Shown here: positions 2,574 to 24,424 of the stretch, one piece after another
How positions within the stretch are numbered: position 1 is the stretch's first letter
How the letters are laid out: every line of letters starts with the position of its first letter
Assembly: GCF_964204865.1 (NCBI RefSeq)
Contig: NC_135256.1
Coordinates: 24,022,703 to 24,086,702, forward strand
DNA length: 64,000 bases
Origin: Styela clava
Taxonomy: Eukaryota; Chordata; Ascidiacea; Stolidobranchia; Styelidae
Direction: 5' to 3'
The notes under the pieces: generated by a model
What the model was told of the DNA's origin: nothing
Seen by the model: the letters and a program-made list of their open reading frames with translations, nothing else
Database searches by the model: none
Position numbers and translations under genes: made by a program

Positions 2574-5474
2574 TCAAAGCTTGAGCGAAGTTATATCGCA
2601 ACCTTGATATCCTCCATGAGACACACAGTATTTTAACAGAGCTCTCCAGTGAGAATCTATTGACAAAACATATGGATTTCCTAGGATGATCATTAGAATT
2701 TTAGCTCTGGTTGTTGCCACATTAAATCTCTTACTGTTTGAGAGAAATCCAAGAGTTCCTCTGACTGATAAGCCATCACCCGGCATGGGTTTTGCTCCGG
2801 AGTTCGATCGAACTGTAGATATGATTATGACAGATCGTTCTTGCCCCTGAAATTCTTCAACTGAACCCACTTTTATGCCACCATCAATGCAAATTGCCCG
2901 TAACATTATCCTCAGTTTTTCTACTTGTGTTCGATAGGGAGCTATAACTCCAATGTCAGATAGTTCAACTTTTTCATCTCTATGTAGCAATTTAACATAT
3001 CTGATTACTTGAACAATCTCTGTTGGATTCATGAGAGAAGGGCTATTACTTTCCCTTAATTGTTGACCAATAATGCCATGAAACAAAATTGGGAACCCCT
3101 TTTTTGGTAATTTGTCCCATTCAAGGAGGTTTTTGTATTGAAGGTTGTCTGCGCATGGTACGAGTTCATGCATGTAGAACATTTTTGATGCAAGTTCTAT
3201 AAGATGTGGATGGGATCGATAGTTGTTGGTAAGCTTGGTCACGAAAAGGGCATTGTATCCGTCTTTGTATAATGAGTCATTTCTAGAGTATACATCCAGC
3301 TTCATCAAACGTTCTAATAAGGATATGTTCAGTCCATACACGTTTGCTAGTGGTGACATGATCACTGGACCCAGTTGTTCTGGATCACCTGCCATGACAA
3401 CTTGACCATTGATCTGCAGTCCTATAGGTATGAGCACTTCTGGTTCGGTTGCTTGTCCTGCTTCATCAATACAGACATGGGTGAAGTGATCTCTTGGTAA
3501 TGCAAGTCCATAAAAAATACCAGCGTTCACACATGTTGTCAAAATGATCCTATAGTGAGAAATTTTTTCTATTTCTTCATCCTTGTGACAGAATTTTGAT
3601 ATCGACTCTGGTATGCTGCTTTCCAAACGCCGAAAAGCATTAAAGCGGACCATATCACTTTCATTAACTTGTCTACTTACTGCTAGCCTCTCACATATGA
3701 CATCTACTGCACTGTTGGAAGGAGCACACACTAATATCCTACACCATTTAAGCAAATGATAAAGCTGTAGTATGACTTCCACCAGAGTTACAGTTTTCCC
3801 CGTTCCAGGAGGCCCAAATAATATATATGGGTGGTTTCTAGTTTCACCATATATTATTCTTTGGACAGATTGCTTCTGCCGAGTGTTAAGATGGGTATTA
3901 AAAAAAAGGTTATTGTCCTTTACGAACAGGTCGACTACACTTTGCTTGGGTGACTTGTGAATCTGATCAGGAAATAGTAAAGCAGCAGGTTTTCGCCTTT
4001 GTGCTAATCTTACTGCAAAATGGCACCTTCGGAAAGGGGCTCTGCTGTACTTGAATTCCACATCATATCTGTCAGATACCTGGAAGTTTTCCTGAAAAGT
4101 TGGATGGAATTTTACTAGAATCTCCTCTTTTTCAGGGAGGATGTGATGAATGAACCCTTGATATTCTAATCCGGATAATTTTGCAGCTGCTGGTTCATGA
4201 AGAATAACAATATCTCCTATAGAAAGTCTAGGCCTGCCGTCAGCAATACCAGCTACGTATATGTTGAGGTATTCGCCTTGTCTTTGTAAACTGATATCTC
4301 TGAGACTGTGCTTGCGAATTTCAATATCTGCATAAATTTCTTCCAAATAGATTAAAGCACCAAATCTAGCAGCGTAATTTTCAAGGCATAGCTCAGTTTT
4401 GATTGATGGCAATAGGCACAACACATCACTCCCATTTTCAACTCGATTCTTTAGATTTTCTGGGACCGGATACTTGGGGAGAAAAGATGGCACAGTGTTG
4501 CGTTTACCTTGTGCAAATGGATATCCACCCCTGAGCGTCCAGTGACTCGATTGAAATTGCCCGCTTGTTTGAGTATTACTTCTAGCTTTCGCTATCAATT
4601 TTACTGAAATTGCTCTCCAGTTCCACTGTCCCTGTTTGCTTTCAACAGCCCTAGCCGCAACTTCATCATCTTGCCATGGTTTATACCCATCATCACACAC
4701 ATCAAAGAAAAACTTAATGTCATTGTTTACAGTCCCTGGGTATGCTTTATTGTTGTCCTTATCATATCTTGGTTGCCTTGTAACTTTTCCTGTGACGATC
4801 TTCGTTCTTAAAGGTTGGACCTTGGCAATTTCTCCATTGTCTGATGCTTCTAATTTCACCCAGTCACCAACAGCTGGGGTATATCCTGCTTCAACAGATT
4901 CTAGTTTGAATTTAACTCCATGTTTCAATGTGCCTTGGTTTTCTCCAATTCCGGTTATGCACTCAACCATTAACCCACCATTTAACTGGACAGAATCTTC
5001 CCACAGATCTTTATGATTCAAATCAGATGTTCCTATTTTAACTACCCTGATTGCTGTCCAGCCGCAGTTCCCAGTTATTCTTCTGATGGCATCCGCTTGA
5101 ACGCGATCGCCTACTTTAACGATGTCGTCATCTTCGAAGGCGGAGACCTCACTTGGTTTGAAGTAAATATGGTTTTCAATCAAACCATCATCTTCTGAAA
5201 TACTGGTAATTAAACCATCGACAGATTTTTGTATAGTTTCGGCCAAATTAGTGCGCGTTTCACATTGCGAAATAAAATGATGTGATCCAAAATGGTCTGC
5301 GCATGAAACATTTAAGCGGTCCAACCAGCGTTTGAATTCTTCAAAACCTCTATCATTTGTGAGGTATCTCTGTTTTTCTAGTTCTGTTACATAGTTGTGT
5401 AATGCTTTATTGAAAGGCGAAGCCTCCTCTGGGCCAAACAAAAATGCTAAAAGACACGCCATACCTGGTTTCAT
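2574..5474 (-). CDS. MOV10L1: MOV10L1-like superfamily 1 RNA helicase (single exon)
   Basis: A 966-residue open frame without introns. The C-terminal half is an Upf1-like SF1 helicase: Walker A GPPGTGKT at residues 554-561, Walker B DEAG at 670-673, GDPEQLGPV after it, YRSHPHL (motif IV region), VEEFQGQER around 871-879 and ATTRAK with arginine 923 (motif VI). The N-terminal half has repeated beta-rich blocks (for example IYFKPSEV, GDRVQADAI, GDWVKLEA) matching the arrangement in MOV10L1 rather than MOV10. In animals MOV10L1 and fly Armitage bind piRNA precursors, unwind them and feed them to phased piRNA production in germ cells. Those activities are family knowledge, not shown here. Vertebrate MOV10L1 is longer (about 1,200 residues) and has many introns, so this copy may be a retrogene or have lost introns. 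The start has two nearby methionines (residues 1 and 5), followed by FGPEEASPF. A possible polyadenylation signal lies at 2411-2416. Transposon sequence begins about 90 bases upstream of the start. Confidence 0.85.
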   Translation of the reverse strand: MKPGMACLLAFLFGPEEASPFNKALHNYVTELEKQRYLTNDRGFEEFKRWLDRLNVSCADHFGSHHFISQCETRTNLAETIQKSVDGLITSISEDDGLIENHIYFKPSEVSAFEDDDIVKVGDRVQADAIRRITGNCGWTAIRVVKIGTSDLNHKDLWEDSVQLNGGLMVECITGIGENQGTLKHGVKFKLESVEAGYTPAVGDWVKLEASDNGEIAKVQPLRTKIVTGKVTRQPRYDKDNNKAYPGTVNNDIKFFFDVCDDGYKPWQDDEVAARAVESKQGQWNWRAISVKLIAKARSNTQTSGQFQSSHWTLRGGYPFAQGKRNTVPSFLPKYPVPENLKNRVENGSDVLCLLPSIKTELCLENYAARFGALIYLEEIYADIEIRKHSLRDISLQRQGEYLNIYVAGIADGRPRLSIGDIVILHEPAAAKLSGLEYQGFIHHILPEKEEILVKFHPTFQENFQVSDRYDVEFKYSRAPFRRCHFAVRLAQRRKPAALLFPDQIHKSPKQSVVDLFVKDNNLFFNTHLNTRQKQSVQRIIYGETRNHPYILFGPPGTGKTVTLVEVILQLYHLLKWCRILVCAPSNSAVDVICERLAVSRQVNESDMVRFNAFRRLESSIPESISKFCHKDEEIEKISHYRIILTTCVNAGIFYGLALPRDHFTHVCIDEAGQATEPEVLIPIGLQINGQVVMAGDPEQLGPVIMSPLANVYGLNISLLERLMKLDVYSRNDSLYKDGYNALFVTKLTNNYRSHPHLIELASKMFYMHELVPCADNLQYKNLLEWDKLPKKGFPILFHGIIGQQLRESNSPSLMNPTEIVQVIRYVKLLHRDEKVELSDIGVIAPYRTQVEKLRIMLRAICIDGGIKVGSVEEFQGQERSVIIISTVRSNSGAKPMPGDGLSVRGTLGFLSNSKRFNVATTRAKILMIILGNPYVLSIDSHWRALLKYCVSHGGYQGCDITSLKL

Positions 5475-5769
5475 GCAACTCGCCCAGCCCGATTAGCTCG
5501 CGTCGTGTGGAGGTTCAGAAATTTTCCTAGCCGGGTTTTCCGCGCTGCCACGGATGACCAGAGCAGTGTTTCCCAAAGTGACTACAACATATTCACGCTA
5601 TAACACTTTATAGTCCCAAACTTGTTTTTGACAGCGCCCCCTTGGTCAACTTTTAGTATAAGCATTTATGGTATAAGTTTATTTCGACTCCATAATCAGC
5701 AGTAGACGATAAAATAATAGATAAAAACAAAAAATAACTGATTATAGAGTCGGGAGAGCAAACAAAACT

Positions 5770-13913: not shown

Positions 13914-14095
13914 TGATTCGATCTCATGGGGTCGTGCTTTGTAATCATAAACAACAATTTAGGTTCAATCCCTTCAAATTTACCACACTGATAGTCTTTT
14001 TTAATTTGCGAGTTTTTATTATCTAGTTCACAACATATAATTTGAAAATACATTATTGTTAGAAGTAGTTTATCTAGTATTAAGTCACAGCATGA

Positions 14096-15247
14096 TTAGT
14101 TGATGATGCTGGTTAAGTTGCTTGCTATATCGAGGTCCAAGTTGCCAAGCATAGATGTGGAGTTTCCTAATTCAGATAATTCATCCAGTGAATTGCTGAC
14201 TTCCCCAATTGTAGTCAATACATTTCCATATGCGTTCAAAACGCCAGCCAAGAAGTAGAAGAACACAAAGAGGTAGATCCCCACTGCGATCCAAGCCAAG
14301 ATTCCCAGAATAAATCCCACAATGTTTAGCGTCTTTGCAGTGTCCGCTTTGCTGCGAGCCTCCATGACGTTGTACGATTTGGCAGAATTTGCCTACATAG
14401 GAAAATTAGTTTGAGAATAAAAATATTCGACGATAGTCGCTGGTTATTCGAGCACGGGCAAGTGGATTGGCGAATGTAAATTCAAATAGAATTTGTTGTT
14501 CGCGGGGTAGCCCACATGGTCTACATAGGTTTCAAGTCTTAGTTTTCCATCCTGGTCTTAATTATAGGTAAATTAAACCGTAGATAGTCCTGGGTGGTGA
14601 AAGTTGTTGCAAAAAATTGAAAAAATTATGACTCCTCAAGTGATCGCACCACCTATTGAAGATTTGAAGTCAAAAAAAAAACTTTCATTTTTTTTGAAAA
14701 TGGTCTCTTACCTGACAGGCAAAGATAAGAGCAACTAAGCCAAGTGGAGGACAACAAAGTAGCATGTTGATAACTGAAGCACAGACACGGTTTGGTACAT
14801 CTGGCGGTGGCTAGAAAATAAAATTTTCAAGTTAGTAACATTATATATAGGAACCACGGTACAACCAAAACAGAAGGTTTATTTTCATCTGCACTTATAT
14901 ATGTTGAAACTTGATTTCTCTGATCTACTCAGTTTGATTTTTGGAAAACGGATATCACGGTTTGTCATTGGGAGGGACATTTGATATTTATATGAAGCGT
15001 ATAGGCGCAACTATGCGCATAAGTAAACGCATTTTACGTAGTTTCATAACATTATCCAGTTTGTTAGGGCTTCTGTATGAGCGCGCGCAATCTATCAGCA
15101 ACGACCAATTTTGTGATTTACAAGAAAACTTGTGAACTCTGAATGAAACAAATATATTTTATGATTCTAATTGATACGAACCGCTTGCACCGTCATTGTA
15201 GCGGGCTGCTGCGGTTGCGCCATCATTGGTTGAACTTGATTACTCAT
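14096..15247 (-). CDS. CD225/dispanin (IFITM-like) membrane protein, copy 1
   Basis: Three exons on the minus strand: 15182-15247 (22 residues from ATG), 14712-14810 (33 residues) and 14096-14392 (98 residues and stop), all phase 0, about 153 residues. Exon 1 is glutamine- and proline-rich (MMAQPQQPATM). Exon 2 carries the CD225 signature: PPPDVPNRVCAS, a hydrophobic segment and the paired cysteines CCPPLGLVALIF. Exon 3 begins ANSAKSYNVMEARSKADTAK, then a transmembrane segment (LNIVGFILGILAWIAVGIYL), and ends in a serine/leucine-rich tail. The family are small two-helix membrane proteins; vertebrate IFITMs hinder virus entry, but most dispanins have unknown roles. The exon 1 donor GTTCGT is weak; the exon 2 donor GTAAGA is good. 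A polyadenylation signal lies 76 bases past the stop. Confidence 0.85.
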
Positions 15248-15599
15248 GATTACTTGCTTTACACCTTCCTCGTATTGGAAAACTTACTCAAAAATTTGCA
15301 GTCCCCGAAGCGAGTATTGAAACGAATAAACTGTTTTTTATGTACGAATTTTGCAATTTCACTTTTGTATTATTTCGTCATAGAAGGAGGGTAATGCGCA
15401 TTATAGCGACTTATATATTTTCATGTTGAAACACGACGGAGCATGGCCGTAATTCGAATCTGACTTTAATAAAAGTTGATGTGTTTCCAATCCTCCAGCA
15501 CTGGATGATCCTGAACGTGGTCGGACAAAATAGCAAACAGGTTTCAGTCTGTGAGAGAGCGAGCAGTAGTCAAGTAAAAAGACGTAGGTCGAGGGCGGT

Positions 15600-15660
15600 C
15601 ATTAACATAGTCATAGTCATAGTCAAGTTTATTTTTTCCAACCAGTAAAATAATGAATGA
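15600..15660 (-). repeat. CATAGT tandem tail, probable LINE 3' end fragment
   Basis: Three CATAGT units followed by CAAGTTTATTTT. On the minus strand this reads AATAAACTTG then (ACTATG)n, the pattern of a 3' tail left by L2/CR1-type non-LTR retrotransposons. Only about 60 bases can be assigned. It is duplicated at 18071-18131 with copy 2. Confidence 0.35.
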
Positions 15661-15763
15661 TGCAAAACATAAGCAAAAATTCAAGAACATAATTTTACTG
15701 GGGAAGGGAAGCCGTGGGGAATCAAAGTTGGTTATCTAGCAGCGGCACTCAAGATTCAACTAT

Positions 15764-16384
15764 CTAATTAATATATAATTTTAGTAGATCAATATAGCAT
15801 AGTATAGTTTAACGAGAAATCGCCATGACACTAGGGTGTATCTGAGAGCCACGCACTACATCAGATAGTAATTTGGGGTATTCCCCGTTTCGTAGATTAA
15901 AGGCAGTGAATAAAAGCGTGTTATGGGGAAATATTCGGGAATTTGTAGTGGCTCAGTTATCACAACCAACTTATGATAATCATCAGTTGTAGTGGACTGG
16001 ACAACGGGAGACAATGAAGAAAGAACAGGTATAAATGACATAAATCTATTGAAGCAGATGTTTGCCATGCCGCACAGTACCGGTACCGGTACTCGAATAT
16101 GAAATACGGTACCGGTAACGTGATGAATAATATTCTATCGTCTGTACAGACACACTGCACTGCATAACAAAAAGAAACAATGTGACTAGGTGTTGGAGTG
16201 TCATTTCAAGTGTGCAATAAAAAAAGTTACTTTTAACATGACAAATGCTGAGATTTGCAATATATCTGTATATATATAATACAAAGTTCATAGCTGCTGA
16301 ACTACAACAATGACTAGAGAACCCATATCTAGTTCAAGTTAAGGGGAGTGGAAATCAAATTAAACGAGTTAATTAGGTAAAATC
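15764..16384. other. 621-bp spacer between the duplicated blocks
   Basis: Unique sequence between the two copies. It contains a TACCGGTACCGGTAC palindromic cluster (16079-16093, with a related GGTACCGGTA near 16107) and ends with the 42-bp sequence (16345-16386) that is repeated after copy 2. No gene is supported. Confidence 0.5.
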
Positions 16385-16386
16385 TG
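16345..16386 (+). repeat. 42-bp direct repeat, left of copy 2
   Basis: Identical to 18248-18289. The pair brackets copy 2 of the dispanin block as a long target duplication would. The last two bases overlap the start of the copied block as microhomology. Confidence 0.85.
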
Positions 16387-18234
16387 ATTCGATCTCATGG
16401 GGTCGTGCTTTGTAATCATAAACAACAATTTAGGTTCAATCCCTTCAAATTTACCACACTGATAGTCTTTTTTAATTTGCGAGTTTTTATTATCTAGTTC
16501 ACAACATATAATTTGAAAATACATTATTGTTAGAAGTAGTTTATCTAGTATTAAGTCACAGCATGATTAGTTGATGATGCTGGTTAAGTTGCTTGCTATA
16601 TCGAGGTCCAAGTTGCCAAGCATAGATGTGGAGTTTCCTAATTCAGATAATTCATCCAGTGAATTGCTGACTTCCCCAATTGTAGTCAATACATTTCCAT
16701 ATGCGTTCAAAACGCCAGCCAAGAAGTAGAAGAACACAAAGAGGTAGATCCCCACTGCGATCCAAGCCAAGATTCCCAGAATAAATCCCACAATGTTTAG
16801 CGTCTTTGCAGTGTCCGCTTTGCTGCGAGCCTCCATGACGTTGTACGATTTGGCAGAATTTGCCTACATAGGAAAATTAGTTTGAGAATAAAAATATTCG
16901 ACGATAGTCGCTGGTTATTCGAGCACGGGCAAGTGGATTGGCGAATGTAAATTCAAATAGAATTTGTTGTTCGCGGGGTAGCCCACATGGTCTACATAGG
17001 TTTCAAGTCTTAGTTTTCCATCCTGGTCTTAATTATAGGTAAATTAAACCGTAGATAGTCCTGGGTGGTGAAAGTTGTTGCAAAAAATTGAAAAAATTAT
17101 GACTCCTCAAGTGATCGCACCACCTATTGAAGATTTGAAGTCAAAAAAAAAACTTTCATTTTTTTTGAAAATGGTCTCTTACCTGACAGGCAAAGATAAG
17201 AGCAACTAAGCCAAGTGGAGGACAACAAAGTAGCATGTTGATAACTGAAGCACAGACACGGTTTGGTACATCTGGCGGTGGCTAGAAAATAAAATTTTCA
17301 AGTTAGTAACATTATATATAGGAACCACGGTACAACCAAAACAGAAGGTTTATTTTCATCTGCACTTATATATGTTGAAACTTGATTTCTCTGATCTACT
17401 CAGTTTGATTTTTGGAAAACGGATATCACGGTTTGTCATTGGGAGGGACATTTGATATTTATATGAAGCGTATAGGCGCAACTATGCGCATAAGTAAACG
17501 CATTTTACGTAGTTTCATAACATTATCCAGTTTGTTAGGGCTTCTGTATGAGCGCGCGCAATCTATCAGCAACGACCAATTTTGTGATTTACAAGAAAAC
17601 TTGTGAACTCTGAATGAAACAAATATATTTTATGATTCTAATTGATACGAACCGCTTGCACCGTCATTGTAGCGGGCTGCTGCGGTTGCGCCATCATTGG
17701 TTGAACTTGATTACTCATGATTACTTGCTTTACACCTTCCTCGTATTGGAAAACTTACTCAAAAATTTGCAGTCCCCGAAGCGAGTATTGAAACGAATAA
17801 ACTGTTTTTTATGTACGAATTTTGCAATTTCACTTTTGTATTATTTCGTCATAGAAGGAGGGTAATGCGCATTATAGCGACTTATATATTTTCATGTTGA
17901 AACACGACGGAGCATGGCCGTAATTCGAATCTGACTTTAATAAAAGTTGATGTGTTTCCAATCCTCCAGCACTGGATGATCCTGAACGTGGTCGGACAAA
18001 ATAGCAAACAGGTTTCAGTCTGTGAGAGAGCGAGCAGTAGTCAAGTAAAAAGACGTAGGTCGAGGGCGGTCATTAACATAGTCATAGTCATAGTCAAGTT
18101 TATTTTTTCCAACCAGTAAAATAATGAATGATGCAAAACATAAGCAAAAATTCAAGAACATAATTTTACTGGGGAAGGGAAGCCGTGGGGAATCAAAGTT
18201 GGTTATCTAGCAGCGGCACTCAAGATTCAACTAT
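16385..18234. repeat. Duplicated block, copy 2 (1,850 bp)
   Basis: Second copy of 13914-15763 in the same orientation. It is followed by 13 bases, including GGAAATCAAAT, that look copied from the adjoining flank, and then by the 42-bp direct repeat. That junction pattern fits copy-and-paste during repair with template switching. Confidence 0.9.
16567..17718 (-). CDS. CD225/dispanin (IFITM-like) membrane protein, copy 2
   Basis: Exons 17653-17718, 17183-17281 and 16567-16863 on the minus strand encode the same 153-residue protein as the gene at 14096-15247, with identical splice sites. It keeps its own upstream 516 bases and a polyadenylation signal (16486-16491), so it could be expressed independently. 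No stop, frameshift or splice-site change separates it from copy 1. If the duplication is real, this is a freshly made functional paralogue and gives higher gene dosage. Confidence 0.85.
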
Positions 18235-18247
18235 GGAAATCAAATGT

Positions 18248-18289
18248 GGAGTGGAAATCAAATTAAACGAGTTAATTAGGTAAAATCTG
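18248..18289 (+). repeat. 42-bp direct repeat, right of copy 2
   Basis: Same sequence as 16345-16386. Removing everything between the two restores a continuous locus (spacer joined to 18290 onward), which supports insertion of copy 2 at this site. Confidence 0.85.
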
Positions 18290-18531
18290 GCATGAGATTG
18301 GCATGTTGTAAAAAAAAAAATAAACACAAATAGTGTTAAAAATTCGTTAGAAAATGAACAATCAGAAGTACATTCTAATATTATGGACCGAGTCATTTGC
18401 TCATATACTGTTGAATTGATTTCAGGGTTTGGAAAGACCTCAAGGAATATAAATTAACTATTGACCAGTGTGCATCAGAAAGTTCTATTTCTTATTGTGA
18501 TCGGGCTCATGAATACAGAGTGACTCATAGG

Positions 18532-18992
18532 CAGGGCTGCCTGCCGTAACGTCCTTATTTTTTCTAAGATTTGTCCTTATTTTGACATGTGTCCGTATTT
18601 TTTTCCTTATTTTATGGGTAGAGGGTCCAATACCAGGCACTTAGATCGGTCAATTCGAATGATTGATTTGCTAGAAATGATATTTTACAACGTCATTGAT
18701 AGCTATGCACATTCATTACGTAATAACAGCAAATTATTTGATACAATGGCAAAACATTAGCCTACCGGCCAAAATCAGTTGGTGTAACTGGAATCAAAAT
18801 ACAACTTAAAGGTAAGATGGAACAGATTGTTTCTAAGAATGAAAAACTGCTGGAGCAAATCCTTTCTAGTGCAAAGTATGATTAGACACAGGTCGCACTG
18901 GCATGAATACATTTTGTTTATTACAATTTGTTGTTCTATTATTATGTTTCCCTGGTGTCCTTATTTTTGGGTTCATATCGATGGCAGCCCTG
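18532..18992. mobile_element. Short hAT-type inverted-repeat element
   Basis: Ends CAGGGCTGCC (18532) and GGCAGCCCTG (to 18992) are inverted repeats. The flanks CTCATAGG (18524-18531) and CTTATAGG (18993-19000) match at 7 of 8 bases, as expected for an aged hAT target duplication. Subterminal TCCTTATTTT repeats occur near both ends. The 461-bp interior has no transposase; hydrophobic open frames across its right end (18827-19085) are chance. Confidence 0.8.
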
Positions 18993-19984
18993 CTTATAGG
19001 TATTCATCGCAAAGTTGGTGAAGAGCGAGAAGATGTTAACATAACTATACTGAACATAGTTTTTATAATTAAAGATTTCGCTTAAATCTCATCTAGACTG
19101 AGCATGTATGCGTGAAATTGTAGATGCACAAAAATACTGTCACAGACAAATTGGCTGTCGGATATTGTTCGATTGGACCGTTGGTCTACTCTGATACGAA
19201 CGTGCTTTTCGAGATGCCAATATGATAGCTTCTGAAAGAATAGTATTTTGTTTATATATATTTACATGATGTCCCAAATGTTTTCTCCGCGCCTCCTACT
19301 ACCAACGATTGGTGATATCACTATTATTACTTATCGATCTTAAGATCGGTAAGTATGTTGATAGGTATTTGTCTGTTTGTTTGTTTGTCTGTCTGTTAGA
19401 TGCACGCGATATCTCACGAAAGCTCCAAATTTTGCATGTGCATTCATCATAGCTCGGATCAGAAGCCTATTGATTTTCGATGAATTATGTCGTATAATTA
19501 GCGAGTTATTGATTAATTAGTGATGGGACACACGGTGTCACTATGGAGTAAAAGCGCTGTTTTGGGGGATCCCCTAACCTCCGATCGACAAGTCTTCGGT
19601 CTCCGACCGCTATTCTCGTTTTTATGTTACTAACAGAAGTGGATAGGGAGATTCGAAACCTATCGTTTAACCCAATTGTCTATCGAATTTACTGCTTTGA
19701 CATTGTATGCCGAAGCGCCTGTACTTGCTAATACGGGAGAAATTAACGTCACCATGATTACCGCACGTCTCTCCGAACTGAATTCTTCCCAAACGTTTGA
19801 CCAGTCACAGACTAGCTAGGGTGGAGTGAGGATGAAGAAATATCCCGCACTTGAAAGTAAGCTCTTATGATTTGGAAGCTCTATCGACATAAAAATCTAT
19901 TGAACAGTTTTTGAATAATTCAGGAGAGGGGCAAATTCGACAACAGGATTACTGTGGGTATAGCAAGTGATCGATTATCACAGG
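18993..19984. other. Intergenic DNA with TTTG/TCTG simple repeat
   Basis: A TGTTTGTTTGTTTGTCTGTC tract lies near 19373-19396, next to GC-richer sequence (19540-19640) that resembles dispersed repetitive DNA. No gene or element boundary could be defined. Confidence 0.35.
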
Positions 19985-21036
19985 CAGGGTTGCCAGATCC
20001 CAGCAATCAAAAAAAAAAAAACAGATCAAGACATAAAAAAGCCAACAATTTTACTAAATACAAAAGCCCCATGATTTGTCAGATTTTGAGCCCTTGGCAC
20101 AATACTGATGCTGATGTAGAGCCATCAGTTCATTTAGTGAGCCACACGAATGTCTCTTCCCATTGAAAGTTGTTTTTTCAATTGCTATCATGGCGATTTC
20201 CACTTCAGCGGGATGAAGGGTTTAAAAGTAAAAAGGATTAATTGAATGGCAGCACCAGAATCTACATTTGGTACAATACAGACAAGGTGACATCTATATG
20301 GAACAGATAAAAAAAAATTTCAAGCGAACAGCATTATTTTACCATTCAATATATATATACAATACAGTCAGTGTGCCACTTCAGTATGTGATATACCTAC
20401 ATGATTTTACTTAAATTTGTGATTTACCTTGAAACATTCTCCCTATATCGTACTTTACTATTAAAAAAAAATTTTATTTTTAAAATTTCGAAACCATCAA
20501 TTTTATTAAAGAATTATCTAACCACGTGTTGCTTACAGGTGGACTACTGATAGCTAATTCAGTAATTTTAGCGTAGTTAATCATATCATTCGTGAGACTA
20601 AATTTTGATTACTGCAATTAATCTAAAGCTCCACATCAGGCATAATAAAAATTAAGGTATACAACAATTTTTTGGAAACCGAACTAAAAACTGACAAATA
20701 ACACGCAAAACAATAAAAAGGAGGCAATGTTTACAACCCTGCTTGAACATCTGTCTCAGCGGCTGCAGAAACTGCAATTATTTCTTATTGGGTATGGTTA
20801 AGCGTTAAGGTAATAAACAAGGAAATCGATGCTCGGATAAATCCATATGTTAAGTAGCTAACCGGTGACATGCTATTGTTACACACTAAATATTGTATTT
20901 CATAGGATTTTAATAATAGAGACTAGAATAGACTTAAAAAAGCCAAAAATCCAAACGGAAATTCTGACGCCAAACGTGTTTGAAAAAAGCCAAAAATCGC
21001 AAATTTGGCGTTAAATAATTCAATATGGCAACCCTG
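19985..21036. mobile_element. Non-autonomous hAT element with perfect 8-bp target duplication
   Basis: Ends CAGGGTTGCCAGATCC (19985) and ATGGCAACCCTG (to 21036) are inverted repeats flanked by identical 8-mers ATCACAGG (19977-19984 and 21037-21044). AAAAGCCAA-type blocks recur near both ends in opposite orientation. The 1,052-bp interior shows no transposase. Confidence 0.9.
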
Positions 21037-22448: not shown

Positions 22449-22514
22449 CATTTGCATCACCGCAGGTTGCTGTGGTTGCACCATTGTTGGTTGAACATAA
22501 CCGACTTGATTCAT
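22449..22514 (-). pseudogene. Lone dispanin first exon
   Basis: ATG at 22514 opens 22 codons reading MNQVGYVQPTMVQPQQPAVM then QM, ending at a good donor GTTAGT (22448-22443). Length, phase and the VQPQQPA motif match exon 1 of the dispanin genes at 14096 and 16567 (also 22 codons). No exon 2 or 3 is seen downstream before the copy-2 gene. It is either the remnant of a gene whose 3' exons were lost, or a distant alternative first exon splicing to 17281. Confidence 0.65.
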
Positions 22515-23727: not shown

Positions 23728-24424
23728 CTATTTGGTCCCATTTGATTTTGGATAGTCTTCGTAGATTCGAAAAACATCTGCATGGTTGGCAAACATAGAA
23801 GCAAAATGAGCAACCACCTTTTGAAGAAATGCAAATCGAGCAGCAATGACAATACAGATAATTATCCATATTAAAAATCCAACAACTACTCCAAATTCAT
23901 TGAGCGTCTTGGCCAGCTCCACTTTGGCTTTAGCTGCATCATAATTAGATTTCTTGGTATCCTCTCGGGCCTAAAAATGAAGTCTCAAACAAATTAAAAC
24001 TCTAGAAACATAAAACTTAGTGAAATACTTAATACATGACAGTAACGAGAAGAAACACTACATTAAACTTAAGCTGTATACCATGATGCGTCAAGAGTTC
24101 AGTTTATTACTAAGATTTTATAGCTTATTATGAAGCTTTGAAATTCCAATTCTAGAATTGAAGTACTTGTACCTTCCACTGGTTGTAAATTGCCCAAAGT
24201 CCGAGAGGTGGACAACAGAAGATCGTAACAAAGATGGAATATTGTAGACTGTCTTCTTCCGGTATTCGTTCTTTCTGTCATGAAAGAAAATATAGATATG
24301 ATTTGACATTCATTAAGAAAAACATTCATTCACCACCCTGGTAAAGTAAGTACTCAAACACCGACACCGATAAAATAGGATTCAACTTCATTTGATTCAG
24401 ATTGTTTTTCCAACTTTGAGCTCA
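23728..24424 (-). CDS. Divergent CD225/dispanin-like membrane protein
   Basis: Two exons are well supported: 24173-24274 (34 residues, KERIPEEDS... with CCPPLGLWAIYNQWK before a GTACAA donor) and 23728-23970 (80 residues and stop, starting AREDTKKSNYDAAKAKVELA, then a membrane segment VVVGFLIWIIICIVIAA). Both are phase 0, as in the other dispanins, and the double-cysteine CCPPLG motif is kept. Exon 1 is uncertain: an ATG at 24424 gives MSSKLEKQSESNEVESYF and a possible GTCGGT donor near 24364, which would make about 134 residues. The C-terminal tail is unlike that of the tandem pair, so this is an older paralogue. Its role cannot be read from the sequence. Confidence 0.7.

Follow-up and report, generated by a model that had tools for sequence, protein, structure and literature searches.

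The dispanin family includes the antiviral IFITM proteins. Lineage-specific IFITM duplications have been described in vertebrates (PMC3499546), where, as at the locus reported here, a CD225-domain gene has multiplied recently. The present locus differs from these in belonging to a tunicate, Styela clava. A glycoside hydrolase family 6 domain, which in animals is not known outside tunicate cellulose synthase, is represented in the assembly by one exon (E = 1.5e-6), as would be expected of a tunicate; COX1 was also sought and gave no match. Literature searches for dispanin or CD225 in tunicates found no report, and a search for IFITM in ascidians gave none on this topic as judged by title.

Two kinds of DNA repair offer the closest described parallels for the duplication itself. 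Microhomology and templated insertions have been described for replication-based insertions (PMC5120786). The FoSTeS/MMBIR insertions of that study resemble the S. clava locus in their 2-bp microhomology and in a short templated insert taken from beside the junction, whereas the human cases presented there involve inter- or intrachromosomal insertions, characterized by arrays and cytogenetics, and the event considered here is local, spans 1.9 kb and lies inside a LINE remnant. Tandem duplications of ∼100 bp to 10 kb have been reported to arise in Caenorhabditis elegans helq-1 when the ends of aborted repair intermediates are joined (PMC8654963). The size class and the seam microhomology of this theta-mediated end joining are shared with the S. 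clava locus. Unlike in the C. elegans helq-1 duplications described in that source, however, 581 bp of the unit is present only once here, which requires a further switch or a deletion.

Structure of the Duplicated Block and Its Genes

The window analyzed here comprises 64,000 nucleotides of the S. clava assembly GCF_964204865.1 (contig NC_135256.1, positions 24,022,703–24,086,702 of the forward strand), and the coordinates below refer to it. Comparison of the window with itself revealed a 1850-bp block that occurs twice on the minus strand, as copy 1 at 13914–15763 and copy 2 at 16385–18234 (offset 2471), with 0 differences, introns included. Identity breaks off sharply at both edges. The original prediction of a dispanin block present twice without a difference, its second copy bracketed by an exact 42-bp repeat (16345–16386 and 18248–18289), was borne out in full. 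Two probes taken from the block, 13914–15000 and 14900–15608, were each found at two places in the 376.6-Mb assembly, both within this window. The final 155 bp of the block (15609–15763) are repetitive LINE sequence, and the region copied upstream of the dispanin ATG comprises 361 bp plus these 155 bp.

Each copy contains the complete dispanin gene and the polyadenylation signal that had been predicted. Gene copy 1 (14096–15247, minus strand) has coding exons at 15247–15182, 14810–14712 and 14392–14096, and gene copy 2 (16567–17718, minus strand) has the same exons displaced by +2471; both carry an identical 153-aa frame across three GT-AG exons. An AATAAA motif is located at 14020 on the minus strand, 76 bases beyond the coding end. 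Residues 28–91 of the 153-aa protein matched the Pfam profile CD225 (PF04505) with a score of 59.2 bits (E = 4.2e-16) against the curated cut-off of 27.1, which assigns the protein to the dispanin family, and two hydrophobic stretches are apparent by eye. A search of solved structures with the protein gave nothing significant (best match 4x5m_A, E = 0.091; PRRT1, 9zks_M, E = 0.56).

A CD225 search of the assembly at E ≤ 0.001 yielded at least four exon-level matches, all over the cut-off, with family counts from this search being lower bounds. The matches comprised the two copies, a third gene in the window at ∼23.7–24.3 kb and one on contig C14. The third gene (23728–24268, minus strand; two exons recognized, outer bounds approximate) is diverged, with 29% identity to the duplicated gene's exon 3, and a search for its first exon did not find one. 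When the exon-3 protein was compared with the assembly at E values up to 1, three matches were obtained, with identities of 100, 100 and 29%. From these searches, the two dispanin copies appear to form a fresh pair standing by itself, not part of a large array.

A further exon resembling exon 1 of the gene is present upstream of copy 2, at 22449–22514 on the minus strand. It has 22 codons, phase 0 and a GT donor, is equal to exon 1 in length and phase, and shares 78.6% identity with it over 14 residues. A tblastn search with the window's own exons found no CD225 exon between this orphan exon and copy 2. It may represent a distal, alternatively used first exon or else the relic of a paralogue since lost. 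One conjecture that we consider improbable is that the duplication split regulation at once: the ancestral distal first exon would now lie nearest copy 2, which would keep the distal start and leave copy 1 with the proximal one only, in a copy that is maybe still polymorphic. Elsewhere in the window, a 972-aa open frame at 2574–5492 on the minus strand has, by eye, the look of a MOV10-type RNA helicase.

Copy 2 Interrupts a LINE

A relation that the original prediction had not recognized is that a single interrupted LINE copy, 15609–16386 continued by 18290–∼18463 (minus strand), makes up the spacer between the two blocks, the 42-bp repeat and also the right flank. Its left (3′) part consists of 3′ UTR only, with a short-repeat tail that ends at ∼15609, and its right (5′-truncated) part, 18290–18463, aligns continuously with other genomic copies (L010, L013, L014 and others), the right end varying from 18440 to 18466 with the copy compared. 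A search with 15500–16386 returned at least 43 genome matches, three of them in the window, and among the best 40 of 1058 candidates scored, the near-full-length matches elsewhere were 89–91% identical from ∼15609 onward. Short-repeat 3′ tails and 5′ truncation, both characteristic of LINEs, are evident in the alignments of the copies. In L014, a fuller copy and the one searched for this feature, a reverse transcriptase ORF (PF00078, E = 7.1e-34) adjoins this 3′ UTR; the window copy is truncated near the end of that ORF. The longest word shared around the window LINE, as a candidate target-site duplication, is the 6-base ATTAAC. Beside the truncated LINE end, at 18527–19002, lies another high-copy repeat, whose main matches elsewhere are 79–88% identical (best 40 of 2959 candidates).

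Twenty-three LINE copies besides that of the window were read, and all 17 that cover the 42-bp site lack the gene block, the counterpart of 16386 being immediately adjacent to that of 18290; L033, among these, matches only 5 bases past the site, and the 17 are not independent witnesses, L014/L015 and L010/L012 being close duplicates. Given that the LINE runs unbroken across 16386|18290 in these copies, 16387–18289 is the insert, which makes copy 1 the source and copy 2 the derived copy. The prediction that copy 2 is the inserted one is therefore upheld. The derived insert measures 1903 bp, consisting of 1848 bp of the block, a 13-bp junction insert and the 42-bp repeat, and two further bases of the block (TG) are common to both sides of the seam. 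By this comparison, the ancestral order was the gene followed by a single LINE copy, 15609–16386 continued by 18290–18463.

The 42 bp differ by four substitutions and two one-base indels from the sequence in 17/17 covering copies, and these changes are present in both repeats. Given that both carry changes private to the window LINE copy, the repeats duplicate this very site. Such changes, being common to both repeats, predate or accompanied the duplication. Their clustering in the 42 bp is mild (P = 0.002–0.02 for one window and 0.04–0.45 when corrected for ∼22 windows) and was given no weight.

The possibility that a young LINE fragment had moved with the gene into a different, older LINE at the insertion point was rejected, as substitution identity measured in windows does not change stepwise at 15763/15764. 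The first 155 bp of the LINE seemed closer to other copies by gapped identity, and this is mostly attributable to a 28-base gap near 15802–15811. The copies L014 and L015 (G000 C18 690022–695957) are ∼5.1 kb apart and 100% identical over 2862 bp aligned, and represent either an array or a further local duplication of recent date.

Sequence of the Junctions

The left seam of copy 2 shows only 2 bp of microhomology, TG. When the 600-base surroundings of the breakpoints were compared, the best local alignment scored 23, against a mean of 22.8 and a 95th percentile of 29 for a null of up to 300 random pairs, from which those <3 kb apart were dropped. Unequal homologous crossing-over (NAHR) is refuted by this result at the level of sequence. 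The block is a direct copy with no long homology at its breakpoints, as expected of a non-homologous duplication. A retrocopy was also rejected, both introns having been kept unchanged.

At the right junction, the predicted short templated insert was confirmed as 13 bp (18235–18247), the first 11 of which match 16350–16360 on the plus strand, inside the 42-bp repeat, and the other two of which are not templated. By comparison, 47 of 20000 13-mers drawn from window positions 20000–63900 reach 11 matches in the same 242-bp neighborhood. The junction 27-mer occurs at one place genome-wide when up to 3 mismatches are allowed, and on this basis a LINE subfamily that already carried an internal deletion was rejected as the origin of the arrangement. 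Both the right end of the insertion and the template of the insert are located no more than 42 bp from the seam; a random separate deletion would fall this near in ∼1.7–3.4% of cases, assuming that deletions are placed uniformly. Microhomology at the seam (2 bp) and at the second switch (1 bp) is near that expected by chance. Collectively, these alignments establish the source and the inserted copy, the letters of the junctions, the lack of homology at the seam and the templating of the 11 bp.

Discussion

The locus is probably best explained by template-switching repair that, in one recent event, duplicated a single dispanin gene locally and without homology. The DNA would have broken within the old LINE remnant that lies upstream of the gene. 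Synthesis during repair would then have run to 16386, jumped back 2.47 kb to 13914 on the TG match and copied the gene and the first 155 bp of the LINE up to 15763, where it would have fallen off. An 11-bp copy would have been made from beside the break and, together with two extra bases, joined to the end starting at 16345, leaving the 42 bp twice. This last joint may have been formed by polymerase-theta-type end joining, and all of the steps would have taken place within the one event.

The main competing explanation, a reasonable one to which we assign a clearly smaller probability, comprises two steps: a tandem duplication of 13914–16386 (2471-bp spacing, 2-bp seam), after which the second LINE stretch lost 581 bp and was rejoined with a 13-bp templated insert. 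Such a route accounts for the whole sequence letter by letter and calls only on types of event that are common, and the 42-bp repeat is simply the remainder left by the deletion; moreover, polymerase-theta end joining has been described as leaving templated inserts at deletions (PMC8654963). A single event is nonetheless favored for two reasons: the two-step route needs a deletion that happens to stop no more than 42 bp from the seam, and it needs both of its steps to be completed before a single substitution had separated the copies (0/1850 differences). This is a preference rather than a proof. The templated 11-bp insert is of the type associated with the iterative switches of FoSTeS/MMBIR, but the letters are equally compatible with a two-step history. 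Thus, of the proposal that replication-based template switching rather than unequal crossing-over created copy 2, the exclusion of homologous crossing-over stands, whereas neither the 42-bp repeat nor the templated insert is diagnostic of one-step switching, given that tandem duplication plus deletion gives an identical sequence. Crossing-over between repeats could draw on the repetitive LINE present at the locus, but TG is all that the left breakpoint and the seam have in common, and such crossing-over is the least credible of the explanations considered.

The complete identity of the copies could also be produced by an assembly artefact, in which one locus was falsely duplicated, or by gene conversion acting on an old duplication. 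An artefact is unlikely: the window is without N, the exact repeats at the seams are only 2 and 42 bp, the right seam shows letters of the repair type, and the unique part of the block is found in no other contig. Two haplotypes should, in addition, differ, and the chance of 0/1850 differences would be 9e-9 if heterozygosity were 1% and 0.16 if it were 0.1%. Heterozygosity of 3.63% has been reported in the ascidian Botryllus schlosseri (PMC12448946), and at a level like this copy 2 is not just the alternative haplotype. The expectation that a simple assembly error is less likely thus holds for errors of the haplotype type, on the grounds of the allelic differences expected and the identity observed. 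Gene conversion is capable of yielding perfect identity, but here identity spans introns, flanks and LINE, ends sharply at both breakpoints and is bordered by no decayed stretch beside the block; conversion is accordingly regarded as very improbable.

Returning to the single template-switching event as the preferred explanation, the 0/1850 differences place a 95% upper bound of 0.16% on divergence between the copies. Because the copies show zero differences, the data suggest that dispanin copy 2 is very young, and it is perhaps still polymorphic. As gene births go, the event is of an ordinary kind, by a known type of repair, though caught unusually fresh. As a result, every junction base of a whole-gene duplication can be read. 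The LINE serves as an internal record of the empty site, such that source and copy are told apart without an outgroup. Any relevance of dosage for the new dispanin copy would be by analogy with vertebrate IFITM. If the duplication is polymorphic, it would be usable for studying the effect of a second dispanin copy.
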